Shown piece after piece: positions 26,316 to 34,129 of a stretch of 34,238 nt of DNA. The translations under genes were made by a program, and so were the position numbers. This stretch comes from an uncultured Spartobacteria bacterium (GTDB lineage Bacteria; Verrucomicrobiota; Verrucomicrobiia; Chthoniobacterales; Chthoniobacteraceae). Position 1 is the stretch's first letter. Every line of letters starts with the position of its first letter. The stretch spans positions 1 through 34,238 of the forward strand of contig CAIWVL010000146.1 of assembly GCA_903916085.1 (NCBI GenBank), read 5' to 3'. Under the pieces are notes generated by a model. That model searched no databases, was not told the DNA's origin, and worked only from the letters and a program-made list of their open reading frames with translations.

Positions 26316-27590
26316 ATGCGTCCCCTACCCTTGCTGGCCTTGGCCTCTACCCTCGGCCTCGCCCCGCTGCTCTTTCAAACCGCTCAATGCCAGGTTTCCG
26401 AAAACGCAACCGCCCCGTTGAAAGTCAGCATCAAAGTGCTTCCCGGCCAGGTTCGGTTCGAGACGACGCGCTTTGATGTGACCGCTGGCAAGCCTGTGGA
26501 ACTAACTTTTTCCAATGGCTGCATCATGCCACACAACTTGGTTATCTTAAAACCAGACGCCGAACCTGCCGTCATTGCGGGCGTGAATGCTCTGGGCTTG
26601 GAGGGGCTCGAGAAAAATTTCGTGCCGGAAGTGCCCGGAATTGTGGCTGCCACGAAGCTGCTACAGCCTCAGGCCAAGGAAGTGCTCACGTTCTCGGCAC
26701 CTCAAGAAACGGGCGATTATCCTTACGTCTGCACCTTTCCTGGGCACTGGTACACGATGCGAGGGGTGATGCGGGTGCGTGCTTCTGGCGTGAAGTTGGA
26801 GGCTGCGCAAAGGGTCCTCGATAAACCAGCGCAAGTGCCCGATGCCCTCAAGCATTCAGAGATGTCCCATAAACCTATGGGAACCATGGACCATCCGTTT
26901 GTGATGCGTACCTTTGCCCTCGATCCGGGCTTGGATCCCGCCGTGTTTGCTCACCATGGCGTGGGCAAGGATGCGGTGAAGTACGATCCTGCCACTCGGT
27001 TGGACATCACCAAAAAGGAAGCCGACCCTCAAACGGGTGTTGTGCGCGAAATCCCCATCCCTGTGCCGTCTCTCAAGGGAGTCGCCGGTGCGATCGCGGT
27101 AAGCCATGGTCCTGATTTCTCCTACGTCTGGGATTCGACAGAGTGCCGTCTCTTTTACGCTTGGAGGGGTGGATTTTTGGATATGAACCCCTACTGGGGC
27201 CAGGAACCCGGTGGAAGCCGCTCCAAAGTCTATCTCCCTCTGATTGTGGGACATCTCGTTTACCGCGCCTCAGGGGCGATGCCTCTCGCCGAGCCCAACG
27301 ATCCTTCGCCGGTTTTCTTGGGGTATAAAATGGAGGGCGGCCTGCCTGAGTTCCGTTATCAGCTCGGACAACGTGTGATCCGGGAGAAAGTTTTGCCCAG
27401 TGCCAAGGATGGATTCGAAGTGCGCGTGACTGTAGAGGGCGGAGCGACTCCGAACTGGAAAGTGAACGCAGCTGACCTCGATGTCACCACAGTGCGGTCT
27501 GAAAATGGAGGGCTCGCGGTGGCCGTGAAGGATCGGCCCGAACCAGAGCACGTTCTGCCACCGGCATCCCCCAAACACGAGAAGCACTAA
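26316..27590 (+). CDS. Secreted plastocyanin/azurin-like copper protein with a C-terminal PVC domain
   Basis: A 424-residue exported protein with a signal peptide (about 1-25) and a cupredoxin domain (about 30-155). The type 1 copper ligands are all visible: H73 (MPHNLV), C139 (YVCTFP), H144 (GHWYT) and M148 (YTMRG). The arrangement resembles auracyanin/azurin. After a linker comes a domain of about 230 residues with FSYVWDSTECRLFYAWRGG and FLDMNPYWG, a pattern I associate with modules fused to cytochromes or propellers in PVC-group proteins. A role as a periplasmic electron carrier is likely; the partner may be the propeller protein whose gene starts 12 bp downstream. ATG at 26316 precedes a good signal peptide. 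A terminator at 26201-26242 isolates it from the channel gene. Confidence 0.88.
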   Translation: MRPLPLLALASTLGLAPLLFQTAQCQVSENATAPLKVSIKVLPGQVRFETTRFDVTAGKPVELTFSNGCIMPHNLVILKPDAEPAVIAGVNALGLEGLEKNFVPEVPGIVAATKLLQPQAKEVLTFSAPQETGDYPYVCTFPGHWYTMRGVMRVRASGVKLEAAQRVLDKPAQVPDALKHSEMSHKPMGTMDHPFVMRTFALDPGLDPAVFAHHGVGKDAVKYDPATRLDITKKEADPQTGVVREIPIPVPSLKGVAGAIAVSHGPDFSYVWDSTECRLFYAWRGGFLDMNPYWGQEPGGSRSKVYLPLIVGHLVYRASGAMPLAEPNDPSPVFLGYKMEGGLPEFRYQLGQRVIREKVLPSAKDGFEVRVTVEGGATPNWKVNAADLDVTTVRSENGGLAVAVKDRPEPEHVLPPASPKHEKH

Positions 27591-27602: not shown

Positions 27603-29132
27603 ATGCGCACCTCACTTTCTCCTTTTGTGCACTCATTGACCCCTTTCCGAAATGCGCTTTTGTCGCTTGTCCTAGCGAGCGGCGCTATGAGCGTCTTTGC
27701 TCAGGAGGCAAAACCCGCCTATCAGGTGGAGGAAATTCCGGTTCCAAAAGGCATTGCGCCTGAAATTGGGGGACTTGGATTTACGCCGTCAGGCAAACTC
27801 GTGGTTCTGACCCGACGCTCGGGCATTCTCACGGCCAAGCCCACGACAGACCCCGCTCAGATGCAGTGGACTCGGTTTTCGGACCAGTCTTTGCACAACG
27901 CCAACGGGTTATTCGTTGTTTCCGATCGTGAAATGCTCGTGAGCCAGATGCCTGAACTTACGCGTATCATCGACCTCGATGGCGACGGCGTTGCTGACGA
28001 GTACCGAACCGAGGCCACCTTTAACTTGAGCGGTGCCTACCACGAGGTGACCGCAGGTCCCGTTCCTGACGGAAAGGACGGTTTCTTCATCGCCCTCAAC
28101 ACCGCCTCTCACTCCGGGTTCACCTTCGAGCACACACGCGGACCTTTCTCGGAAGTCAGCCGCCGAGGGCGCAATTTCGCTTCTGTCGAGTACCGGGGTT
28201 GGGTGATGCACTGGGATCCCAAAACCGGGCTGACTCCGTGGGCAAAAGGCTTTCGCTCGCCTAACGGCATTCAGTTCGGTCCTGATGGTTCTCTTTGGGT
28301 GACTGACAACCAAGGCGATTTCCGCACCACTAATCCCCTTTACAACGTTCAAAAGAACGCTTTCTACGGCCACCCCTCCTCCCTGGTTTGGGATCCTGCC
28401 TACGTCCAAAACAATCCCAAGCGCGACCCCCTCAAACAGCCCATGGAAGAACTGGACGCCATGCGCACGCCCGCCGCTGTCCTCTTTCCCTACGGTTTCT
28501 CACGCTCCCCCGCAGAACCTCTGTTTGAACTGACGGGTGGTAAATTCGGTCCCTTCAATGGGCAGATGCTCGTTGCGGATGCCGCCGCTCCGCGCATCAT
28601 TCGCGTGATGCTCGAACAGGTGGACGGTGCATGGCAGGGAGCTTGTGTCGATTTCTACTCAGATCATGGCCTTCGTAATGGCTCCAATCGCATGGTTTTT
28701 TCTCCTGACGGTACGGAACTGTATGTAGGCCAAACCATGCGCGAGTGGGCCAATGCCATGGAGGGTCTTCAACGCATCCGCTACAACGGCGGACGCGTCT
28801 TTGAAGTGCTTGCCATGCATTTGCAAAAGGACGGGTTCGAGCTCGAGTTTACTCAACCCGTTGATATCGGCGCCGCTGATCAACCCAGCGCTTTTAATAC
28901 GGAAACCTATTGGTACGAGTATTCCTCAAGCTACGGCGGCCCCGAATCCGACGCTAAAAAAGTGCGGCCCACAGCGGTGCGTTGGAGTGCAGACCGTCGG
29001 AAAGTTAATCTCACCTATGCGCAGATGCAGTCGCAACGCGTGATGCGTGTGACGCTCACCGGGGTAACTTCCAACGCTCAGCCCCTCGGGCATACCATGG
29101 TTGCCTACACGCTGAACCACTTGGCGAAATAA
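27603..29132 (+). CDS. Secreted beta-propeller protein, PVC dehydrogenase-like, no heme motif
   Basis: A 509-residue exported protein (signal peptide about 1-34, ending near SVFAQ). Its propeller resembles soluble glucose/sorbosone dehydrogenases: IGGLGFTPSGKLVVLTRR, LHNANGLFVVSDREMLVSQ, DGDGVADEY, SPNGIQFGPDGSLWVTDNQGDF, MVFSPDGTELYVGQT. The last 100 residues form an Ig-like module (DGFELEFTQPVD ... YWYEYSSSYGGPESD ... TMVAYTLNHL) that commonly ends PVC heme proteins. No CxxCH is present, so unlike the 2521-5583 protein it carries no heme and would need an external electron acceptor. The cupredoxin encoded 12 bp upstream is the obvious candidate, by inference. The substrate is unknown. Confidence 0.87.
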   Translation: MRTSLSPFVHSLTPFRNALLSLVLASGAMSVFAQEAKPAYQVEEIPVPKGIAPEIGGLGFTPSGKLVVLTRRSGILTAKPTTDPAQMQWTRFSDQSLHNANGLFVVSDREMLVSQMPELTRIIDLDGDGVADEYRTEATFNLSGAYHEVTAGPVPDGKDGFFIALNTASHSGFTFEHTRGPFSEVSRRGRNFASVEYRGWVMHWDPKTGLTPWAKGFRSPNGIQFGPDGSLWVTDNQGDFRTTNPLYNVQKNAFYGHPSSLVWDPAYVQNNPKRDPLKQPMEELDAMRTPAAVLFPYGFSRSPAEPLFELTGGKFGPFNGQMLVADAAAPRIIRVMLEQVDGAWQGACVDFYSDHGLRNGSNRMVFSPDGTELYVGQTMREWANAMEGLQRIRYNGGRVFEVLAMHLQKDGFELEFTQPVDIGAADQPSAFNTETYWYEYSSSYGGPESDAKKVRPTAVRWSADRRKVNLTYAQMQSQRVMRVTLTGVTSNAQPLGHTMVAYTLNHLAK

Positions 29133-29385: not shown

Positions 29386-30048
29386 ATGGACCGGACTTTT
29401 CAAAAGCTACTCGCCGAGGGATTAGGTACGGCCTTGCTCCTCGTGGTTGTCATAGGCTCTGGTATCATGGCCGAGCGACTGTCCGGCGGTAACGGTGCTT
29501 TGGCGCTCTTGCCCAACACATTGGCAACGGTGTGGGGGCTAAATGTTTTGATCAGCACCTTTGCGCTTGTGAGCGGGGCGCATTTCAATCCGGTTGTTTC
29601 CGCCGTCTTTGCGTTCAAGGGCGAGTTGGCATGGAAACTCCTTGTGCCCTAAGTTGTTGTGCAGTCGTCGGGAGCTGCGTGTGGCGCGTGGCTTTCCCAT
29701 GTCATGTTTGAACTTCCCGTTCTGCAATGGTCCACAAAGATACGCACGGGTAACGGTCAGTGGGTGGCCGAAGGGGTGGCCACCGCTGGACTGGTGTTAG
29801 TGATTTTACGAACCGCCAGCGGGAAGGCTGCATCAGTAATCGCCTTTTATATCGGTGCCGCCTACTGTTTCACCGCATCGACCTCCTTCGCCAATCCTGC
29901 GGCGGCCTTTGGGCGAATGTTGTCTGACACTTTCGCTGGCATTGCGCCGGAATGCGTTCCGGCCTTTGTGGTGGCGCAGGGAGTTGGGGCGGCGTTGGGC
30001 GTCGGCATGGATTGGATGTTGAAGGCGGAGTCGAGAAAAAGGGTGTGA
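29386..30048 (+). pseudogene. Aquaglyceroporin (AqpS-like) gene interrupted by an in-frame TAA
   Basis: Two open stretches in the same frame, 29386-29652 and 29653-30048, together encode one MIP-family channel of about 220 residues. The first half has the initial helices and the first pore loop HFNPV (N68). The second has the second pore loop FANPAAAFGR (N170) and the last helix. Only codon 89, TAA at 29650-29652, interrupts them; there is no frame shift. Tyrosine-to-stop by one base change is a plausible origin. In ars operons of the Sinorhizobium type, such a channel releases arsenite made by ArsC. As written, the gene yields an 88-residue fragment with a single pore loop, so it is probably inactive unless the stop is a sequencing error or is read through. 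A GTG at about 29656 could restart the second half. Confidence 0.85.
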
Positions 30049-30097: not shown

Positions 30098-30141
30098 TTC
30101 TTGGTTATTTTGCCAAATAATAAAATAGCCAAATAACCAAG
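30098..30141 (+). promoter_or_regulatory. arsR promoter with palindromic operator overlapping the start codon
   Basis: TTCTTG (30098-30103), a 17-base spacer and TAAAAT (30121-30126) form a good sigma70-like promoter. A perfect inverted repeat, CTTGGTTATTT (30100-30110) and AAATAACCAAG (30131-30141), brackets the -10 element, and CCAAATAA occurs twice as a direct repeat. Transcription would start within about 10 bases of the GTG, giving a nearly leaderless mRNA. The dyad is the likely ArsR binding site. Confidence 0.6.
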
Positions 30142-30467
30142 TGACCGTTCTCTCGACTCCCGCCTCCGCCAAGCGTGTTGCTGTGCTCAAGGCACTCGCT
30201 CATCCCTCGCGCCTTCTCATCACCGAGGCCCTCATGAGCGGTGAACTTTGTGTGTGCGACTTGCGTGACCTCGTGGGTGACGATGTGTCCACTGTTTCTA
30301 AACACCTCTCGATCTTGCGTTCTGCGGGCGTACTCACCTGCGAAAAGCGTGGCCTCAATGTGTATTACAGTCTCGTGTGCGATTGTTTTGGAGAATTTTT
30401 GCGGTGCGTAGATCAAGTCTGCGCGCTGCCTCCTGTCCAGCCATCGGTGAAGATAAACTGCTGCTAA
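30141..30467 (+). CDS. arsR: ArsR/SmtB-family arsenite-responsive repressor
   Basis: A 108-residue winged-helix repressor. The helix-turn-helix is seen in LRDLVGDDVSTVSKHLSILRSAG, and the wing follows with CEKRGLNVYYSL. The arsenite-binding region ELCVCDL (C37, C39) matches the CVCDLC site of E. coli ArsR apart from the third cysteine, which is arginine here. Extra cysteines near the C-terminus (CDCFGEFLRC, INCC) could supply the third ligand. It begins with GTG at 30141, directly inside the right arm of a palindrome, and ends three bases before the DUF6428 gene, so the two are cotranscribed. It presumably autorepresses the arsR-DUF6428-arsC unit until arsenite binds. Confidence 0.93.
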   Translation: MTVLSTPASAKRVAVLKALAHPSRLLITEALMSGELCVCDLRDLVGDDVSTVSKHLSILRSAGVLTCEKRGLNVYYSLVCDCFGEFLRCVDQVCALPPVQPSVKINCC

Positions 30468-30470
30468 ATC

Positions 30471-31025
30471 ATGATAATCCAAGAATTTCTATCTCAACTG
30501 CGGGCCCATCCGACGTTGCCGCTTTCTTTCCGTCTGCCCGATGGCTCGTGGGTGCCTGCGCATTGCCACATCACCGAGGTGGGCCATGTCAGTAAGCGGT
30601 TCGTCGACTGCGGAGGCACGCGGCGCGTTCAGGAAAGTTGCCTGCTTCAGACTTGGGTTCACGACGACACCGAACACCGGCTTCTGGCTGGCAAACTCGC
30701 GACCATTTTTGAGCGGGCGGGTGACCTTCTCCCTCACCAAGAGCTCCCCATTGAAGTGGAGCACGAGCTTACCGTGGTGGCGCAATTTCCCCTTGAAAGC
30801 GTTCAAGTCGAGGACGGTCGGTTTGTGGTGAATCTTGGGACCAAGCATACGGACTGTCTGGCCAGGGCGATTTGTTTGCCTGGCACTTGCGCGCCCGTCC
30901 CTTTGCCGACATCGGTATGCGCGCCTGTCCCTGTGTCAATGTTAGTGCCAAGTGATGTAAGGATGGGCAACTGCTCCACTTTCCCTTTTCCAACGGTCGC
31001 CCCTGCGCGTTCCTGCTGCTCTTAA
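30471..31025 (+). CDS. DUF6428 family protein, ars-operon associated
   Basis: A 184-residue cytoplasmic protein. The body matches the DUF6428 family: PAHCHITEVGHVSKRFVDCGG near residues 30-50, then LLQTWVHDDTEHRLLAGKLA, IEVEHELTVVAQFPLESV and a KHTDCLARAICLP segment. Members commonly sit in arsenic operons of Bacteroidetes and Verrucomicrobia, but no function has been established as far as I know. The conserved His/Cys pairs (CHxTEVGH, DCGG, CLARAIC) suggest metal or metalloid binding. The last 50 residues are a low-complexity, proline- and valine-rich tail with further cysteines, ending CCS. It starts three bases after arsR and ends six bases before arsC, which is tight operon packing. Confidence 0.85.
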   Translation: MIIQEFLSQLRAHPTLPLSFRLPDGSWVPAHCHITEVGHVSKRFVDCGGTRRVQESCLLQTWVHDDTEHRLLAGKLATIFERAGDLLPHQELPIEVEHELTVVAQFPLESVQVEDGRFVVNLGTKHTDCLARAICLPGTCAPVPLPTSVCAPVPVSMLVPSDVRMGNCSTFPFPTVAPARSCCS

Positions 31026-31031
31026 TTCCCT

Positions 31032-31481
31032 ATGAAACCACTCGTTCTCATTCTGTGTACGGGCAATTCCTGCCGTAGTCATCTTGCGGAGGGCCTGCTG
31101 CGGGCGAGTGCCGGTGCAGTCCTCGATGTGGCCAGTGCAGGATCCAAGCCTGCAGGATTTGTTCATCCGCTCGCGATTGAGGTCATGCGAGAGATCGGTA
31201 TCGACATCCGTGCGCAGCACAGCAAGCACATGAACGAGTTTTTGAACCAGGGTGTAGAGACGGTCATTACGGTATGCGGCAATGTGGATCAGGCTTGCCC
31301 GATGTTCCCTGGCCAACTGAATCGCCATCACTGGGGTTTTGATGACCCGGCTCACGTTGAGGGATCCCGCGAGGAACAGCTGGCGGTGTTCAGGCGTGTC
31401 CGCGACGAAATCAAACGGGTTTTCGACGCTTACGCAGCCGGGCGTCTGGATTTCCGCCACTCGCCAGCGTTACCCCAGTGA
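31032..31481 (+). CDS. arsC: Arsenate reductase, low-molecular-weight phosphatase (thioredoxin-coupled) type
   Basis: A 149-residue cytoplasmic enzyme reducing arsenate to arsenite. The P-loop CTGNSCRS (C9, C14, R15) is the PTPase CX5R signature. The catalytic acid region is WGFDDP. The redox relay cysteines C82 and C89 (VCGNVDQACP) match the thioredoxin-dependent class exemplified by S. aureus pI258 ArsC, not the glutaredoxin class. It is the last gene of the plus-strand ars unit, six bases after the DUF6428 gene. It faces the second arsR-like gene across 21 bases. No ArsB or Acr3 pump is in the window; the only arsenite exit gene visible is the broken aquaporin upstream. Confidence 0.95.
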   Translation: MKPLVLILCTGNSCRSHLAEGLLRASAGAVLDVASAGSKPAGFVHPLAIEVMREIGIDIRAQHSKHMNEFLNQGVETVITVCGNVDQACPMFPGQLNRHHWGFDDPAHVEGSREEQLAVFRRVRDEIKRVFDAYAAGRLDFRHSPALPQ

Positions 31482-31502: not shown

Positions 31503-31817
31503 CTAATCACCCAGAAAATCCATTCGGAAAGTACAGCACCCAAAGTCGAGGACTTGCCCCTCTTCCTCAACGCGGCGGCGGAAGTTGGGTGTGATGAAAT
31601 ACTCGCGCCGCTGCCCGATGGCGCGGACCTCCACAATCCCAGCGTCCTTGAGGACTCTCAGGTGCTTGGAGGTGTTGTATTGGGTGATCTCCAAATGATC
31701 CGAAAGCTCATTAACACCCCGTCCCTCCGTAAGCAGGGCCTTCACGAGGCGCTGGCGCGTACGGTCGGCGAGAGACTTCAGAATGTCGGAGCAATCTTGT
31801 GAGGCCACAGGTGACAT
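31503..31817 (-). CDS. Second ArsR-family HTH regulator
   Basis: A 104-residue winged-helix regulator. The HTH is seen in LSDHLEITQYNTSKHLRVLKDAGIV and the wing in GQRREYFITP. It lacks the CxC pair of classical arsenite sensors in the equivalent helix (GRGVNELSDHL), but ends with VLDFGCCTFRMDF, where the adjacent cysteines may form a different sensing site. The frame is open to a TTG at 31844; the ATG at 31815-31817 is preferred. It is convergent with arsC, 21 bases between stops, with a small imperfect hairpin spanning that gap. It may regulate the neighbouring ars genes or its own minus-strand unit; neither can be decided here. Confidence 0.88.
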   Translation of the reverse strand: MSPVASQDCSDILKSLADRTRQRLVKALLTEGRGVNELSDHLEITQYNTSKHLRVLKDAGIVEVRAIGQRREYFITPNFRRRVEEEGQVLDFGCCTFRMDFLGD

Positions 31818-31876
31818 TTTGGCGCAAACGCGGGGCAACTGCAATCGCTCTCACACGCGCCCGACGCAAGTTTCAG

Positions 31877-32710: not shown

Positions 32711-33610
32711 TTATTGATCCTTCAACAAGGACAATCCCTTCTCAAGGGCCTGCTCAGGCGGGATAGCCACCAGGGCCGCCTCTTTTCGTAACCACGTCTC
32801 TTGGCGACGCGCGTACTGCCGAGTGGCCGCAGTGATCTGTGAAATAGCCTCTTCTCGCGAGCATGTGCCCTCCAGGACGCTTGCCACCTGCTTCAGCCCG
32901 ATGGTTTGCTGTGAAGTCATCCCCACTTCAGGAAGCGCGCGTCTTACTTCTTCCTCCACTCCCGATGCGAACAATCGCCCGGCACGCCCTGCAATGCGTT
33001 GGTGTAAGTCCTCCCTTTTTGGCGAAACCCAGATCCCAATTGGGGGCTCACACCAGGGGGCGGTGAGTCTGAAGCTGGTGAACGCCTTTCCCGTTAGAAT
33101 ACACACTTCCAGTGCCCGAATGACGCGCCGCGGGTTTTGAAGGTCCACGGTCGCGATTGCTTCGGGATCAAGGGTGGCCAGACGCGTTCGGAGGGCGTCA
33201 AGAGGCTGTTGTTCTAGATCTGCGCGCAGATTTGCGTCGGGGCCGGGGAGTCCTTCAGAAAGGCCATACAACAACGCTTTTATGTAAAGCCCTGTGCCTC
33301 CTACGAGAATGGGAAGGCGCCCCGTTGCACGGCACTGCGTCAGGCGCTCACGGGCCAGTGCCAGATAGCAGGCAGCGTCAAAAGATTGGCTGAGGGGGAT
33401 TTCGCCGACGAGATGATGCGGTGCTTGGGCAAGTTCCTCCGCGGTGGGCTGAGCTGTAAGAAGCGGCAGGCCGCGGTAGATCTGGAAAGCATCGGCGTTA
33501 ATGATCGCCCCACCGCAACGCTGGGCGATCTCGAGGGCGAGTTGGGTTTTCCCCGAAGCTGTGGGGCCGCCGATGACCAGGCTTGGCAGGCTGGAAGAAT
33601 GCGCTCGCAT
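32711..33610 (-). CDS. miaA: tRNA dimethylallyltransferase MiaA
   Basis: MiaA transfers a dimethylallyl group to the N6 of A37 in tRNAs that read codons starting with U, including tRNA-Tyr. The 299-residue product has the P-loop GPTASGKT (15-22), INADAFQIYRGLPLLTAQPT, HHLVGEIPLSQSFDAACY, LVGGTGLYIKALLYGL, RRVIRALEVCILTGK and a C-terminal TRQYARRQETWLRKE that contacts tRNA. The usual serine in the ISADS motif region is replaced (INADAF), which is within family variation. The ATG at 33608-33610 is canonical. The leader just upstream is a G/C-rich 8-bp tandem repeat, leaving no visible Shine-Dalgarno. Confidence 0.95.
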   Translation of the reverse strand: MRAHSSSLPSLVIGGPTASGKTQLALEIAQRCGGAIINADAFQIYRGLPLLTAQPTAEELAQAPHHLVGEIPLSQSFDAACYLALARERLTQCRATGRLPILVGGTGLYIKALLYGLSEGLPGPDANLRADLEQQPLDALRTRLATLDPEAIATVDLQNPRRVIRALEVCILTGKAFTSFRLTAPWCEPPIGIWVSPKREDLHQRIAGRAGRLFASGVEEEVRRALPEVGMTSQQTIGLKQVASVLEGTCSREEAISQITAATRQYARRQETWLRKEAALVAIPPEQALEKGLSLLKDQ

Positions 33611-33623
33611 GGGACGGGATAAC

Positions 33624-33701
33624 GGGACGGCGGGACGGCGGGACGGCGGGACGGCGGGACGGCGGGACGGCGGGACGGCGGGACGGCGGGACGGCGGGAC
33701 G
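33624..33701. repeat. 8-bp tandem repeat (GGGACGGC), about 9.75 copies
   Basis: Nine perfect copies of GGGACGGC (33624-33695) followed by a partial GGGACG. A related GGGACGGGATAAC lies just before it at 33611-33623, next to the miaA start codon. G triplets recur every 8 bases on the plus strand, so the tract fits a G-quadruplex pattern (three Gs, five-base loops). It fills the 102-bp gap between the HTH gene and miaA. Confidence 0.97.
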
Positions 33702-33712
33702 AGCCCGGCGAT

Positions 33713-34129
33713 TTAGCCCAAGCCAAGTTGGCGCCACTTCATCAGCACCCAAAGTCCAGTCGCGGCTAGGAGGAGGATACCTCCAAAAACTAAGAGAGGA
33801 ACAATAGACGGGGAGCGTTCTCGAGCCGCCACCGAGTCTTCGGAGAGAGGTGGGATGTGGGCGTTTTTGATGTACTGATAATCTTTGGAGTGAAGGGCGT
33901 TGTGGCCTTCCATGGAACGCGCCTCCTGAGAGACGTCGACGCCAAGGTGCGCTCCATACATGGAAAGAAACCCCCGGCAATAGGCCATGCTTGGGAAAGA
34001 GGAATAGTCGTCTGCCTCCAAGGCTGCCAACTTGTCAGGCCGGATGCAGGTGGACTGGGCGACATCCTCGAGCGTCAGCCCTCGGTCGAGCCGTGCTTTG
34101 CGAAGTCTTGCTCCTAAACTTTCAGACAT
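33713..34129 (-). CDS. RodZ-like HTH protein with a single membrane segment
   Basis: A 138-residue protein with an N-terminal cro/RodZ-type helix-turn-helix (LGARLRKARLDRGLTLEDVAQ, then IRPDKLAALEADDYSSFPSMAYCRGFLSMYG, about residues 5-65). A short linker leads to one C-terminal transmembrane helix (VPLLVFGGILLLAATGLWVLM, about 108-130). RodZ proteins couple MreB to the envelope and share this HTH plus membrane anchor, but typically carry a periplasmic domain that is missing here. The ATG at 34127-34129 is canonical. Its stop lies 11 bp before the tandem repeat upstream of miaA, so the two genes may be cotranscribed through the repeat. Alternatively it is a minimal relative rather than true RodZ. 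Confidence 0.82.
   Translation of the reverse strand: MSESLGARLRKARLDRGLTLEDVAQSTCIRPDKLAALEADDYSSFPSMAYCRGFLSMYGAHLGVDVSQEARSMEGHNALHSKDYQYIKNAHIPPLSEDSVAARERSPSIVPLLVFGGILLLAATGLWVLMKWRQLGLG

Follow-up and report, generated by a model that had tools for sequence, protein, structure and literature searches.

The window, a stretch of 34,238 nucleotides from a Chthoniobacteraceae genome (contig CAIWVL010000146.1 of GCA_903916085.1), carries on its plus strand a MIP-family gene, arsR, a gene for a DUF6428 protein and arsC, in this order (Table 1). The DUF6428 gene is densely packed between arsR and arsC, leaving gaps of 3 bp and 6 bp, respectively, in agreement with the initial annotation. A promoter and terminator scan gave counts near chance (two promoter-like sites with 0.9 expected, three terminator-like sites with 3.5 expected), so that only the spacing of the genes points to a shared transcript. 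A second ArsR/SmtB-family gene (31503-31844, minus strand) is convergent with arsC. Elsewhere in the window, a cupredoxin-domain protein (26316-27590, Copper-bind match) is followed by a 509-aa protein (27603-29132) whose only matches, to propeller families of the NHL/GSDH type, are weak and below the cut-off, and a tandem repeat at ~33580-33790 appears in overlapping ORFs of the two strands as repeats of RRDGGTAG or of corresponding motifs.

Table 1. Genes of the ars locus in the window and codons of the conserved core cysteines of the DUF6428 protein.
Feature	Position	Strand	Remarks
MIP/aquaporin-family gene	29386..30048	+	in-frame TAA at 29650-29652
arsR, ArsR/SmtB-family repressor	30141..30467	+	HTH_5 1.7e-12; ELCVCDL motif and C-terminal CC read from the sequence
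DUF6428 (PF20001) gene	30471..31025	+	184 aa, ATG start; core match residues 3-136, Cys-containing tail beyond
C47 codon (DCGG)	30609..30611	+	invariant, 145/145
C129 codon (CLA)	30855..30857	+	invariant, 145/145
C135 codon	30873..30875	+	142/145
arsC, LMW-phosphatase-type arsenate reductase	31032..31481	+	LMWPc 6e-18; CTGNSCR loop and C...C pair (VCGNVDQACP) read from the sequence

The window protein matches PF20001 with 126.4 bits (1.1e-36, cut-off 28.7; 126.2 bits in the genome search) and contains the HxTE, DCG, Q60, C129 and C135 elements conserved among the relatives compared. The alignment covers only positions 1-129 of the 155 profile positions, and the tail of the window copy, which contains Cys, is longer. 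Long tails are not peculiar to this copy, as L044, a relative in the same genus, has 186 aa and L041 has 175 aa; the exact tail sequence, C168 included, is unique to the window copy among the compared relatives. The motifs CHITEVGH, DCGG and CLARAIC and the terminal CCS, to which the initial annotation had drawn attention, are all present. The window ArsC matches the NCBIfam model arsC_pI258 (TIGR02691) at 2.2e-38 with 131 bits, which is below the cut-off of 174.3.

The genome of the window (3.70 Mb in 379 contigs, 97% complete) yielded the interrupted MIP gene as its sole MIP match, and profile searches of this genome for Acr3 (TIGR00832) and ArsB (PF02040) gave no match. The gene order of the window is shared by another Chthoniobacteraceae genome (L073), in which the MIP frame is open and encodes 220 aa; the DUF6428 protein of this locus has the same sequence as the one encoded by L039, whose genome is labelled as the same genus. 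Thus, either the internal TAA is a sequence error, or the genome has lost arsenite exits of the MIP, Acr3 and ArsB kinds.

DUF6428 was found in 41 of the 387 sampled genomes of the phylum, in 17 of the 40 of the family and in 24 plasmid records, and in none of 14 control genomes. A genome scan with a close alignment (A2) as the query gave at least 586 loci. Members in ars operons occur in Verrucomicrobiota, Planctomycetota, Bacteroidota, Deinococcota and Pseudomonadota. A survey around one genome (G437) found DUF6428 in 1 of 294 genomes, G437 itself, in a sampled group that may not be Planctomycetota.

The neighborhoods of the best 80 of the at least 586 genome loci, of 16 of the 24 plasmid loci and of 12 IMG/VR loci were compared, together with 30 of the 43 phylum loci other than that of the window and with 16 family loci, both sets with flanks of 1.5 kb. 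Neighbors were defined as open-frame matches to profiles built from a few annotated plasmid and window genes; greedy gene calling was unsuited, with shadow ORFs winning in GC-rich loci and the window arsR being missed. A same-strand ArsR, ArsC, Acr3 or ArsB match lies within 2.5 kb in 67 of the best 80 genome loci, 29 of the 30 phylum loci and all 16 family loci, samples that overlap through some identical proteins, and likewise in 13 of the 16 plasmid loci and 1 of the 12 viral loci. When either strand is counted, all 16 analyzed plasmid loci (of 24 records) have an ars-type gene within this distance. In the 80 genome loci, ArsR matches occur at 0.175 per kb near DUF6428 but at 0.0039 per kb more than 5 kb away; in this background of 516 kb, none of the other ars classes was matched. 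The plasmid loci show densities of 0.201 (ArsR) and 0.050 (ArsC) per kb near DUF6428 against a background, over 29 kb, of 0.069 and 0.035 per kb, which is higher because some plasmids carry more than one ars cluster. The membership of DUF6428 in the ars system, as proposed by the initial annotation, is well supported, and a predominance of homologues away from ars genes, which would have spoken against it, did not appear in the cellular loci examined.

The arrangement of the operons varies. Of the 80 genome loci, 35 have a same-strand arsR no more than 300 nt upstream. ArsC matches within this distance are located downstream in 27 and upstream in 10; most neighbor profiles went through one iteration against the loci under study, so that the ArsC class may contain other LMW phosphatases. 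The order ArsR-DUF6428-ArsC is found in 13 and MIP-DUF6428-ArsC in 11 of the 80. The frequent upstream arsR would fit a co-regulator acting with ArsR. However, such a role is highly unlikely given that the MIP-first and ArsC-upstream orders are also common, that the Pfam scan of the window protein gave no DNA-binding domain and that family members are fused to enzyme-type domains. On Pedobacter and Pontibacter plasmids, DUF6428 is accompanied by arsR and acr3, and ArsC is neither annotated nor detected in the stretch, an association that indicates arsenite more than arsenate. Clustering of the unclassified neighbor ORFs (2,435 ORFs from 108 loci) gave clusters of at most six loci, and thus no further partner is as widespread in these loci as the ars genes. 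One cluster of five loci, at whose position an antisense frame is also present, is same-strand in 5/5, and another of four loci in 4/4. Separately, metallophosphoesterase genes lie close to Acr3 in eight Bacteroidota plasmid ars clusters with DUF6428 (L050, L053, L146, L148, L149, L152, L153 and L154), six of which also contain a GNAT gene.

Fusion proteins connect DUF6428 with enzymes. Three planctomycete proteins of 289-291 aa (L083, L097 and L103) consist of DUF6428 followed by an LMWPc domain (50-56 bits to Pfam), which by its sequence is of the LMW ArsC type and a putative reductase. A 329-aa protein of the Deinococcus ficus plasmid pDFI1 (L048), annotated as ArsN2, has a GNAT domain followed by DUF6428. 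A further protein (L094, 10001-10504) shares 93% identity with the fused L097 protein, yet an ArsC domain was not detected in it, perhaps because the fusion was lost. The three fusions with an ArsC-type domain, together with the adjacency of arsC in the genome loci, could also be explained if DUF6428 were a redox or assembly partner that reduces or positions ArsC rather than an arsenite carrier. However, the window ArsC, like the fused domains, keeps a CX5R loop and a later C...C pair, as in thioredoxin-coupled ArsC, and the Pedobacter and Pontibacter loci pair DUF6428 with Acr3 where no ArsC was detected. We therefore regard a partner of this kind as distinctly unlikely. A precedent for fused ars parts is AqpS-ArsC of Salinispora tropica, described in the available portion of PMC6205960, in which arsenate reductase is fused to a channel. 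Both fusions combine a reductase-type domain with a further component on the path of arsenite, but the partner in AqpS-ArsC is a membrane channel, whereas DUF6428 is a soluble domain without an assigned action.

Some copies lie apart from ars genes. No ars-type match was found within 2.5 kb in 11 of the best 80 genome loci, four of which have fewer than 400 bases on one side; among these 11 genomes, Acr3 occurs elsewhere in three and an ArsC-family match in eight, all below the cut-off. Among the IMG/VR loci, L061 is an ars operon and the other 11 of the 12 have no ars-type match nearby, and L057-L059 encode one and the same DUF6428 protein. A 595 kb uncultured phage record (LR756511.1) also encodes DUF6428. 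Searches of these phage and virus records, which are possible fragments, gave LMWPc in 0 of 12 (11 IMG/VR and LR756511.1) and Acr3 in 0 of 9. The nine records with neither match (L054, L055, L056, L057, L060, L062, L063, L064 and L156) range from 20 to 595 kb. A terminase match above the cut-off is present in 4 of the 12 records, two of which share the same DUF6428. The phage copies adjoin UvsX/SSB, thymidylate synthase or helicase genes; in L054, SSB and UvsX genes lie just upstream. A PHROGs search with five DUF6428 proteins gave no match up to E 0.1.

The 11 genome loci and 11 IMG/VR loci without ars-type neighbors argue against a role restricted to arsenic. They would be accounted for, as would the UvsX/SSB, thymidylate synthase or helicase neighbors and the lack of LMWPc and Acr3 matches in the phage and virus records, by a general thiol or metal-handling protein borrowed by ars operons and phages alike. 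This explanation is very unlikely in view of the ars linkage in 67 of the 80 genome loci. In addition, the virus records may be fragments, and the L054 phage copy, which keeps the Cys set, shares 72% identity with a planctomycete copy, so that its presence would be explained by capture from a host. A quick tree, in which support is below 80 on 69 of the 143 inner branches, requires at least six changes of the phage label, which fits repeated capture by phages but does not prove it.

Residue conservation was analyzed in 145 non-redundant complete proteins from 155 loci, after exclusion of two without a stop codon (L065 and L119) and eight duplicates. H33, T35, E36, D46, C47, G48, Q60 and C129 are invariant, and E97 (143/145), C135 (142/145), D66 (141/145) and H69 (139/145) are nearly so. 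Of these, T35, E36, D46, Q60, E97, D66 and H69 are additional to the residues listed by the initial annotation. A CC pair lies within the last 12 residues in 134 proteins, 108 of the 145 end in CC, and 11 have no such pair. The conserved Cys/His clusters proposed by the initial annotation are borne out for H33, C47, C129, C135 and the tail CC, but not for the whole of CHITEVGH, where H33 is the only Cys or His conserved: 143 of the 145 proteins have F, Y or A in place of C32, and the position of H39 is variable (R in 70, H in 42). In a distant Deinococcus/Shinella/Mucilaginibacter branch of six sequences, H33, T35, E36, D46, C47, Q60, C129 and a tail Cys are kept in 6/6, C135 in 3/6, D66 in 2/6 and H69 in 0/6.

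The invariance of H33, T35, E36, D46 and Q60 speaks against a protein that serves as a thiol trap only and suggests, at the level of conservation, something more. These residues, mostly with D66, H69 and E97, might form the active or metal site of an arsenic-metabolism enzyme, in which the Cys would hold or orient an arsenical. Their strict conservation in the 145 sequences, their retention in the distant branch and the fusion to the acetyltransferase-family ArsN2 are in favor of an enzyme. However, neither profile searches nor fold comparisons gave a clear match to an enzyme, and the distant branch lacks H69 in all six sequences and D66 in four, which leaves an enzyme unlikely, if the best placed of the alternatives.

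AlphaFold2 models of the window protein (pLDDT 85.8, pTM 0.72) and of a short planctomycete member (L089; pLDDT 94.0, pTM 0.86) indicate a confidently predicted alpha/beta core. Foldseek comparisons of both models with the PDB showed no match at E 0.001. In VIA-align, both models matched glutamine synthetase best, in its N-terminal part (Z 3.2 and 3.4; 72 aligned residues with an rmsd of 3.4 in both), a likeness that may reflect a common arrangement only. Similarly, Foldseek against BFVD gave nothing at E 0.001; two unnamed viral models were found with a probability of 1.00 at E 0.006 and 0.014 (TM 0.42-0.57). A profile search of PDB sequences returned a single match at E 0.37. The predicted core therefore has no clear relative among solved structures, from which a new fold is not thereby proven.

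The occurrence of DUF6428 in ars operons, its fusion to ArsC-type domains and its carriage by phages make it likely that the protein takes part in arsenic handling and has so far been overlooked. Our main reading, with a probability of about one half, is that DUF6428 is an ars-operon accessory protein acting as a cytosolic arsenite carrier or scavenger, because it combines three core Cys, a CC tail and a fusion to an enzyme type that makes arsenite. According to the gene order, ArsR would control the expression of DUF6428. ArsC would make arsenite, and DUF6428 would take up the As(III) in the cytosol, where core C47, C129 and C135 may hold it as one site with the aid of the flexible C-terminal CC pair. 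The protein would then either keep the arsenite or hand it over to an exit, Acr3 or a MIP channel.

The known arsenite chaperone is ArsD (PMC6205960; PMC2440759), which was first described as a co-regulator and has the Cys pairs Cys12-Cys13 and Cys112-Cys113 (PMC2440759), according to the available portions of these papers. In the features given there, DUF6428 resembles ArsD in being a small cytosolic ars-operon protein, often beside arsR, with conserved Cys and a vicinal CC. Unlike ArsD, however, the window protein gave no match to the ArsD family in a Pfam scan up to E 1. Neither arsA nor arsD is annotated in the 14 annotated plasmid loci, for which the PLSDB tables are incomplete. A search of the available literature by the name DUF6428 returned no paper on the family (one unrelated chemistry paper was found), consistent with the initial annotation, which had described it as a family without an assigned function, and "DUF" is absent from the main texts of PMC4435449 and PMC6205960.

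Although ars operons are well studied, a recurrent part of them still bears a DUF name across five phyla. More tentatively, and with less confidence than the carrier role itself, DUF6428 could be the first family of a new type of soluble arsenite carrier, whose fold has no clear counterpart among solved structures, which bacteria would join directly to arsenate reductase through gene fusion and which large phages would have acquired several times as an independent gene for protection against arsenic. Should DUF6428 bind arsenite, ArsD would be joined by another kind of soluble carrier for arsenite, one that occurs with Acr3 or a MIP channel. PMC12607003, in its available portion, cites arsenic resistance genes encoded by viruses as already known; if the binding holds, the gene repertoire of large phages would, through the DUF6428 copies, extend to arsenic handling.
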